A stretch of DNA of 20,243 nt from a virus. The notes beneath the pieces are model-generated. The model saw nothing but the letters and a program-made list of their open reading frames with translations. It had not been told where the DNA came from and searched no databases. Positions 2,434 to 17,342 of the stretch are shown here, piece by piece. Made by a program: the position numbers and the translations under genes. The stretch spans positions 1 through 20,243 of the IMG/VR virus record IMGVR_UViG_3300031227_005024. One strand, given 5' to 3'. Each line of letters starts with the position of its first letter. Positions within the stretch are counted from its first letter, which is position 1.

Positions 2434-2588
2434 CTGACGAAGAAGCAAGGGAATTAGCAGAGGCTCATTGGAAATGGTTAGAAGTATTATTACACCAGAT
2501 ATATGTAGACGCTATGGTTCACGGTTGCGGTCACGGATTTGAGGACTGCGAAAGGAAATATAAGGTGGGCAAGTATGACGTACGATAA
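2430..2588 (+). CDS. Hypothetical 52-residue early protein
   Basis: A 52-codon frame beginning at ATG 2430, overlapping the previous stop as ATGA and served by AAGGAGGG at about 2417-2423. The product has an amphipathic N-terminal helix (EEARELAEAHWKWLEVLL) and a HGCGHGFEDC segment with two Cys and two His that could hold one metal ion. Short helical phage proteins ending in an HG-x-x-HG motif are frequent in early operons, but no function is known to me. The start overlap and ribosome binding site are the main support, since the gene is very short. Confidence 0.6.
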   Translation: MTDEEARELAEAHWKWLEVLLHQIYVDAMVHGCGHGFEDCERKYKVGKYDVR

Positions 2589-2640
2589 AGATGATTGAGA
2601 AAAAAGAACATGGGATTAAACATGGGCAGAAGGCATAAAG

Positions 2641-16142: not shown

Positions 16143-16298
16143 TCAAGGGAAAGGGACTGCGGTAGGTTGATAGGCAAAAGGTTCGGGAATGATACCGAGT
16201 AAAGAGGCAAGGAAATATATTACAAATAAAATAAGAAGAGACGCAAGGACTTTATAATTAAGTATTAGATCAATTATCCGTTGCTTCTTTGTTCTCAT
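16143..16298 (-). CDS. Leftward small membrane protein (51 aa, or 65 aa from TTG 16340)
   Basis: A leftward frame in a late region otherwise read rightward. From ATG 16298 the product is 51 residues: a basic N-terminus (MRTKKQRIIDLILNYK), one strong membrane helix (VLASLLILFVIYFLASLLGI) and a short Pro/aromatic tail (PEPFAYQPTAVPFP). This implies an N-in single-span protein. The frame is open back to TTG 16340, which overlaps the stop of the upstream leftward ORF as TTGA and would add 14 residues by coupling. No ribosome binding site precedes either start. A consensus extended -10 promoter at 16305-16333 would begin its RNA at the ATG itself, making it leaderless. No family is recognised. A phage cargo ('moron') membrane protein such as a superinfection-exclusion factor is possible. 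Confidence 0.5.
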   Translation of the reverse strand: MRTKKQRIIDLILNYKVLASLLILFVIYFLASLLGIIPEPFAYQPTAVPFP

Positions 16299-16304
16299 AA
16301 CTAA

Positions 16305-16333
16305 ATTATAGCACATCTTGTCAAGATAGTTAA
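16305..16333 (-). promoter_or_regulatory. Leftward extended -10 promoter at the membrane-protein gene
   Basis: On the minus strand TTAACT (16333-16328) is followed by a 17-bp spacer and a perfect TATAAT (16310-16305). TGC before it gives an extended -10. The start would fall at or next to ATG 16298. The spacer is mostly the palindrome ATCTTGTCAAGAT (16315-16327), a plausible operator. Confidence 0.55.
16315..16327. promoter_or_regulatory. Palindromic candidate operator ATCTTGTCAAGAT
   Basis: Perfect 6-bp arms around one central base, lying between the -35 and -10 of the leftward promoter. Its inner 11 bp (TCTTGACAAGA on the minus strand) are identical to the palindrome at 5663-5673 that overlaps the -35 of the late promoter. 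A shared regulator is inferred. Confidence 0.45.
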
Positions 16334-16336
16334 AAA

Positions 16337-16450
16337 TCAAGTAAGGGTTAGGTGTTCTTTGAGCTTGGTTAAACTATCTCCCCAACTTTCTTGGGTTTTG
16401 CTCAATCCCCAAGCCTTTTGGAGAGAGGAATCTGACCATCCAAACTCCAC
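16337..16450 (-). CDS. Leftward 37-residue ORF of unknown function
   Basis: A 37-codon frame from GTG 16450 on the minus strand, with AAGGAA about 4-5 nt upstream and a near-consensus promoter (16502-16530) about 45 nt before the start. The peptide is soluble-looking, Ser/Trp/Lys-rich and internally repetitive (KAWGLSKTQESWGDSLTKL). Its stop overlaps the TTG start of the longer form of the next leftward gene (TTGA, 16337-16340), so the two may be co-transcribed and coupled. The opposite strand is also open here, so the coding call depends on the start signals and promoter. No family is recognised. Confidence 0.4.
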   Translation of the reverse strand: MEFGWSDSSLQKAWGLSKTQESWGDSLTKLKEHLTLT

Positions 16451-16455
16451 ATCTT

Positions 16456-16490
16456 CCTTAAGTTATCTTAAGTTCTTAAGGCTGTTTTTT
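16456..16490 (+). terminator. Possible weak terminator / triple CTTAAG element
   Basis: CCTTAAG (16456-16462) and CTTAAGG (16475-16481) can pair as a 7-bp, AT-rich stem around a 12-nt loop, followed after three bases by six T (16485-16490). A third CTTAAG (16467-16472) lies in the loop. It could end the rightward transcript of the giant gene, though the stem is weak. Read leftward, the same three palindromes lie in the 5' leader of the leftward ORF. Confidence 0.4.
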
Positions 16491-16501
16491 CAACCCAAAA
16501 A

Positions 16502-16530
16502 ATATTAACATTTTTATTCAAATCTGTCAA
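16502..16530 (-). promoter_or_regulatory. Near-consensus leftward sigma70 promoter
   Basis: On the minus strand a perfect -35 TTGACA (16530-16525) is followed by a 17-bp spacer and TAATAT (16507-16502). The predicted start is near 16495. It would transcribe leftward across the CTTAAG element into the 37-residue ORF and the membrane-protein gene, against the late operon. Confidence 0.65.
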
Positions 16531-16581: not shown

Positions 16582-16609
16582 ATACCCGTCAAATCTTTAA
16601 GGCGGGTAT
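16582..16609 (+). promoter_or_regulatory. Hairpin just upstream of the scaffold gene
   Basis: ATACCCGTC (16582-16590) pairs with GGCGGGTAT (16601-16609) as a 9-bp stem with one G-U pair and a 10-nt loop. It ends about 10 nt before the AAGGAGG of the scaffold gene. The tail (ATTTCATTT) is only partly U-rich, so it may be a leaky terminator or a 5' mRNA-stabilising or processing structure that sets the high expression of scaffold and coat. Confidence 0.5.
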
Positions 16610-16634
16610 ATTTCATTTAAGGAGGTTTTTCAAA

Positions 16635-17342
16635 ATGCTGGACGAACCCAAGGGAACTGCACAGGACACATCTTCGGGTAATGCCGGACAGTCTTCTGGC
16701 AGCAAGAGTGGGACTACTTCAAAGGACAAGGGTAAGCTCTACACTGCTGCTAACATTTCAAAAATCCAGAGCGATGCTAAATCGGAGGCTGGAAGGCTAC
16801 AGAAGACAGCAGAGCAGGAAAGGGACACTCTCAAAGAGCAACTTCAGTCTACTACAAGTAGATTGGACTCACTTGAGAGAGAAAGAGATGAGTCCCGTCT
16901 CGCAGATGCAAGGGGAGACCCTGACCAACTCCGAACCTATCAACGGGAACAAGGTATAACAAAGCGGGAGCGAGAGGTTGAAGCCAAGGAATCAGACTAC
17001 GCCAGACGTGAGGGGCAATTAAAGGCGGACCGCGCTGAAGTTGATAAAGACAAAAGCGTGGTATCCATTGCCTATCTTGCTGCCAAACATGGCCTGGAAA
17101 CTGAGGAACTGGAGTCACTTGGTATCAGCGACCCCGAGATACTTGAGAAAGTCGCTGGGAAACTCGCTGCTGCTAAGCCTAAAGGAACCGGAGAGGAAGG
17201 CGGAGAAGGTGGGGAAGAGGAAAGCGAATTTATCCCTGACTCGGGCGAGGGAGCTGGTGGTGGAGCTGGAGCCCTTACCACAGAGAGCGTAGAGAAAAGC
17301 TCTATAGCTGCTGTGGAAAAGGCTTTGGGAAAAGCCTCATAA
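16635..17342 (+). CDS. Capsid scaffolding protein
   Basis: A 235-residue, highly charged protein immediately before the coat gene. Residues 1-35 are a Gly/Ser/Thr-rich disordered arm. Residues about 40-145 form a long coiled coil (SEAGRLQKTAEQERDTLKEQ and following). A short globular helical part follows (VSIAYLAAKHGLETEELESL), then a Gly/Glu linker and a C-terminal helix (SIAAVEKALGKAS). This layout is that of phage scaffolding proteins, which direct coat assembly into proheads and then leave. The start is ATG 16635 with AAGGAGG eight bases upstream, and the coat gene follows after 21 nt. The C-terminal helix is the likely coat-binding element. Confidence 0.85.
   Translation: MLDEPKGTAQDTSSGNAGQSSGSKSGTTSKDKGKLYTAANISKIQSDAKSEAGRLQKTAEQERDTLKEQLQSTTSRLDSLERERDESRLADARGDPDQLRTYQREQGITKREREVEAKESDYARREGQLKADRAEVDKDKSVVSIAYLAAKHGLETEELESLGISDPEILEKVAGKLAAAKPKGTGEEGGEGGEEESEFIPDSGEGAGGGAGALTTESVEKSSIAAVEKALGKAS

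Follow-up and report, generated by a model that had tools for sequence, protein, structure and literature searches.

Introduction

Prophage cargo genes, or morons, offer the closest described parallel to the locus studied here. STMMW_20121 of the Salmonella prophage ST64B lies antisense to the lytic genes, has its own promoter and is described as occupying a region characteristic of moron loci (PMC7067206). We analyzed a stretch of viral DNA of 20,243 nucleotides (IMG/VR record IMGVR_UViG_3300031227_005024, positions 1 to 20,243; hereafter the window) that carries a small leftward gene, here called mem, within its late region. This gene resembles prophage morons such as STMMW_20121 in having its own (here predicted) promoter, in running against the lytic genes, in being variably present and in being carried, among the relatives, by temperate phages. 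It differs from STMMW_20121 in that its product is a single-span protein of 51 aa and its mRNA is predicted to be leaderless, and the likeness is one of locus layout.

A second parallel is found in the membrane proteins of superinfection exclusion (Sie). P22 SieA, HK97 gp15 and the lactococcal and streptococcal Sie/Ltp proteins are, like mem, envelope proteins that prophages encode in addition to their core genes, and blocking DNA entry is, in our judgement, the commonest role of such envelope proteins. mem differs in that no Pfam, PHROG or NCBIfam family resembles its sequence above threshold, and a role is proposed for it by analogy.

Results

A leftward unit of one gene in the late region

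The interval between the giant late gene and the scaffold-like gene measures 538 nt, and the leftward elements that a preliminary description of this DNA had placed there are present in the sequence (Table 1). As that description had also stated, all other plausible genes of the window run rightward, and the leftward unit runs against them. The unit is real, but it consists of one gene, mem, rather than of a two-gene operon. The giant late gene gave no Pfam matches; it sits between a 558-aa gene, which follows the terminase, and the scaffold gene, and its size and content are highly variable among relatives.

Table 1. Positions of the leftward unit and its neighbors in the window.
Feature	Position	Strand	Basis and remarks
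Giant late gene, 2187 aa	9533..16096	+	Left neighbor, convergent with mem; precedes the slot in relatives too
mem, 51-aa single-span membrane protein MRTKKQRIIDLILNYKVLASLLILFVIYFLASLLGIIPEPFAYQPTAVPFP	16143..16298	-	Sole real gene of the unit; homologues, dN/dS, AlphaFold, hydropathy
Predicted promoter P2, TTAACT-N17-TATAAT, extended -10 (TGC-TATAAT)	16305..16333	-	Consensus; 6 nt 5' of the mem ATG
37-codon GTG frame, probably no gene	16337..16450	-	Chance about 0.26; without homologue; missing where mem recurs
Predicted promoter P1, TTGACA-N17-TAATAT, 10/12, TG-extended	16502..16530	-	Predicted by consensus; upstream of the leader
Hairpin, 9-bp stem, 10-nt loop	16582..16609	+	Borders the slot on the right, 25 nt 5' of the scaffold gene; part of the rightward mRNA
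Scaffold-like gene, 235 aa	16635..17342	+	Right neighbor, immediately 5' of the coat gene; homologues 56-61% in L001-L003
Major coat protein, P22 gp5 family, PF11651	17364..18497	+	Pfam E 9e-42; PHROG 283

mem is a conserved protein with a single predicted span

We found three homologues of mem in IMG/VR, with identities of 61-75%. The homologue in L010 (4014-4169, minus strand) encodes 51 aa at 69% identity and lies in the same place and on the same strand as mem of the window, in a phage whose coat protein is 63% identical to the window's. The homologues in L092 (8001-8156, plus strand; 75% identical) and L091 (2609-2749, plus strand; 61-67% identical) belong to phages that carry a different coat protein. 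Across these two unrelated capsid proteins, all three homologues are found on the anti-late strand, 5' of the scaffold gene and convergent to the giant gene. This convergence with the end of the giant gene is constant, and the remaining neighbors differ in each homologue.

Four copies of mem are known, and selection was therefore measured on three pairs only; in these, synonymous change far exceeded replacement change (dN/dS = 0.17, 0.10 and 0.18), indicating that mem is under purifying selection at the protein level. The membrane frame had previously been given as either 51 or 65 aa. The shorter version, from the ATG at 16298, is the one that stands: L010 has an in-frame stop two codons 5' of the homologous ATG, which blocks the extension to the TTG, so the 65-aa version is not shared and the conserved product is 51 aa long.

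In the AlphaFold prediction, residues 4-33 form a helix that follows a basic N-terminus, and the best 19-residue hydropathy window of the protein scores 2.68. Alignment of the homologues placed the best-conserved residues outside the helix in the tail, IP..FAY..TA.P.P. Given the basic N-terminus, the positive-inside rule predicts that this tail faces outward (N-in/C-out). Our best reading is that mem represents a new family, whose members span the membrane once in the N-in/C-out orientation.

Nothing above threshold was found for mem in Pfam, NCBIfam, PADLOC, PHROG, PDB, or phage or plasmid records, and a protein search of phages with mem gave zero matches; the Pfam, NCBIfam, PADLOC and PHROG searches thus matched it to no known Sie family. 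The earlier characterization as an undescribed system without a known family is consequently apt for the protein family, whereas the kind of system is a known one. Several weaker matches were considered and rejected. A Haloarcula permease (plasmid search, E 0.1) was judged a chance match because it falls outside the OppC_N domain of that protein and has a different helix register. OppC_N itself (PF12911), in which a comparable helix leads into a PYDPTA-like tail, resembles mem in combining one helix with a tail containing Pro, Thr and Ala; it gave no match in the mem-bearing contigs G000, G006, G008 and G009 at E 10. A SieB Pfam match from a single mem member (E 0.32) is weak and was not taken as evidence, and the remaining weak Pfam matches, PF05296 (taste receptor) among them, are generic helix matches.

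The 37-codon frame is probably not a gene

The preliminary description had read the unit as two genes, with a 37-codon ORF and its ribosome binding site preceding the membrane frame. The frame exists and is preceded by AAGGA, and its TGA (16339-16337) does overlap the TTG (16340-16338) that opens the 65-codon frame. Its standing as a gene did not hold up, however: a frame of at least 37 codons occurred in about 26% of simulated leaders (P ~0.26), tblastn of the 37-aa peptide against the fetched loci returned chance matches only, and none of the three relatives with mem (L010, L091 and L092) has the frame. The accompanying proposal of a soluble partner peptide in a toxin-antitoxin-like pairing is likewise not supported. 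Such a pairing calls for two conserved adjacent genes, and across the homologues mem alone is conserved, with neighbors that differ each time.

Two predicted promoters and a predicted leaderless start

Two distinct promoter sites matching the consensus at 10/12 or better were observed on the minus strand of the 538-nt interval, where 0.12 would be expected, and just one further site of this quality is present in the whole window. The upstream site, P1, had been reported as a perfect promoter. Its sequence and position were confirmed, but the -35 alone is perfect; the -10, after a 17-nt spacer, matches at 4/6, and TG lies one base 5' of it. The second site, P2, was absent from the earlier description and stops six bases short of the mem ATG.

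This 6-nt gap between -10 and ATG recurs among the homologues, being found in the window (TATAAT), L092 (TATAAT) and L010 (TATTAT). In L091, TAGAAT lies 6 nt 5' of the GTG of the first cargo frame, which is a different membrane frame of 58 aa (2436-2612, plus strand). This frame stands in tandem 5' of the mem homologue, in the arrangement TTGACA-N8-TAGAAT-6-GTG, and has a weak holin-like Pfam match (E 0.023). The motif TTGACA-N8-TANAAT has three occurrences in 93 kb of these phages, all at such cargo starts. Moreover, mem is the sole gene on contigs G009 (L092) and G006 (L010) whose real start shows the 6-nt -10 spacing, the other matches being internal codons. Signals resembling a -10 about 12 bp 5' of the start codon mark leaderless bacterial genes (PMC3160421), and the -10 of P2, six bases from the ATG, predicts a leaderless mem mRNA on the same grounds. 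From this spacing we infer that the mRNA is translated in leaderless form.

P1 aligned with the cargo promoter of L012 (score 18 versus a shuffle mean of 9.8, P 0.0015; one test, on AT-rich sequence), which suggests that P1 may be a relic of an earlier cargo; it is possibly either such a relic or a second promoter of the slot. Directly 3' of the predicted P1 start, three CTTAAG palindromes fall within 24 bp (16457-16480) and form a candidate operator. A terminator scan of the minus strand found no terminator-like site for the leftward unit, and 46 bp separate it from the convergent giant gene.

The giant-to-scaffold junction as a cargo slot

Relatives were located by means of the major coat protein, and we surveyed the junction in ten distinct phages, the window included, whose coat proteins share 58% identity or more with that of the window. 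The slot was empty in 5/10 (L001, L005, L009, L011 and L013), where 64-98 bp separate giant gene from scaffold gene, and filled in the window, L010, L012, L002 and L003, whose set of slot genes is shared by L004. Several leftward genes behind TTGACA-N17-TATAAT (read by eye) occupy the slot of L002, and that of L003 contains zinc-binding-like frames and a frame of HNH type (Pfam HNH, E 4e-4, slightly short of the curated cut-off). In L012, a 103-aa membrane protein whose coding sequence is unlike mem stands behind a promoter almost identical to the mem promoter of L010. Presence or absence of the block between the giant and scaffold genes had been proposed as a check on the unit, and by this measure mem is variable: only part of the phage group has it, most relatives lack it, and where the slot is not empty it otherwise contains different small genes.

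Judged by these sequences, the giant-to-scaffold junction is an exchangeable cargo slot. We consider it possible, although doubtful, that the slot is moreover a dedicated plug-in site for small lysogenic membrane proteins, in which a leaderless anti-late promoter is kept and the frame behind it swapped; the kept promoter with a swapped frame comes from a single phage pair, L010 and L012.

A hairpin ending 23-28 nt 5' of the scaffold start codon, with a stem of 9-11 bp, was present in 11/11 phages (the window, L001, L002, L003, L009, L010, L011, L012, L013, L091 and L092). The stem sequence differs in most of these phages yet always pairs, with compensatory changes. Stems were delimited by exhaustive search; a MAFFT alignment of the scaffold leaders misplaced L013 and L094. 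The hairpin lacks a U run and is therefore no classical terminator, and it had no Rfam match at gathering thresholds. Possibly it acts as a 5'-UTR stabilizer or regulatory element of the capsid mRNA. Directly 5' of the hairpin, L010, L012, L013 and L092 share a second element: GGTCG-n3-GGCT and, after it, a small hairpin whose loop reads GCCAYAAR.

Phages carrying mem include temperate ones

Besides the window, G006 and G009 are the only mem-bearing contigs of at least 18 kb, and both encode tyrosine integrases (E about 1e-34). No integrase was found in the window's 20-kb record, which may be a fragment, or in the 13-kb contig G008, and a search for resolvase-type integrases returned none. In G009, a repressor-like HTH gene adjoins the integrase (read by eye). 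Beside the integrase start of the same contig (L113, about 16590-16650) lies a sequence resembling the 3' half of a tRNA, GGAGGTTCAAATCCTCTCACCCCGA (read by eye), a probable attP that could help find the host.

Discussion

The proposal of an independently expressed cargo gene is well supported by the anti-late orientation, the predicted promoter of its own, the presence and absence of the gene at the slot, the temperate relatives and the purifying selection. On these sequence data, we consider it very likely that a temperate tailed phage carries this unit as a moron of one gene. Expression of mem would probably take place in lysogeny, and the protein probably alters the surface of the infected host during viral dormancy.

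By analogy with the Sie proteins, superinfection exclusion is the likeliest role for mem. A prophage would transcribe mem independently of the late genes, as a leaderless mRNA, and the protein would cross the cytoplasmic membrane once with its basic N-terminus inside. The conserved proline-rich tail, IPEPFAYQPTAVPFP, would be exposed outside and engage a host envelope protein, and this contact would most likely block DNA entry by related phages. Since the exclusion step is the weaker one and is based on analogy, we give the full statement, a mem moron with a role in superinfection exclusion, about even chances.

The foremost alternative is a moron with some other role in lysogenic conversion, in which mem would modulate a host membrane complex (a transporter, protease or sensor kinase) and have no bearing on phage entry. 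All the evidence for a moron fits this equally, and many small bacterial proteins with one span regulate larger membrane proteins. No specific point counts against it; neither a host partner nor a host homologue was found. We regard it as a real possibility, though a clearly less probable one than exclusion.

It is unlikely that mem is instead a lysis-tuning protein similar to a holin or antiholin. Its size and single span would suit a pinholin or antiholin, and its neighbor in L091 has the weak holin-like match given above. However, mem is coded against the late genes, most relatives must lyse and yet lack it, and the small membrane proteins that cluster close to the tail end and integrase of G009 and G006 are distant from mem, although this last argument is positional only.

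Slightly less probable still is that the leftward transcript from P1 and P2 acts chiefly on late transcription, as antisense or interfering RNA, and that the protein is secondary. The orientation convergent to the giant gene, a P1 leader of about 200 nt ahead of mem and the scan without a leftward terminator are in keeping with such an RNA. Against it stand the strong protein-level selection on mem, a leader sequence that is unconserved in every relative and a transcript fold no better than shuffles (z -1.2). Rfam searches of the interval (E 1) and of nine loci (gathering thresholds) likewise gave zero matches. Finally, a two-gene operon, whose 37-aa soluble peptide and membrane peptide would act as a toxin-antitoxin or exclusion pair, could draw on P1 at 16530, a plausible ribosome binding site and the overlapping stop and start, but is highly improbable given a first frame that is within chance, without homologues and absent from L010, L091 and L092, and a conserved mem with a promoter of its own and a start at the internal ATG; the stop in L010 blocks the extension to the TTG.

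As a probable moron, mem adds an unnamed family of small proteins, represented by four sequences. Its start is clear, its slot is defined and its conserved tail can be mutated, which together make for a simple test of function. The most surprising element is a promoter kept while the reading frame is swapped, and mem itself exemplifies phage cargo whose translation is likely leaderless. For this uncultured phage group, the junction marks a site from which anti-phage or host-modifying genes may be harvested by synteny.
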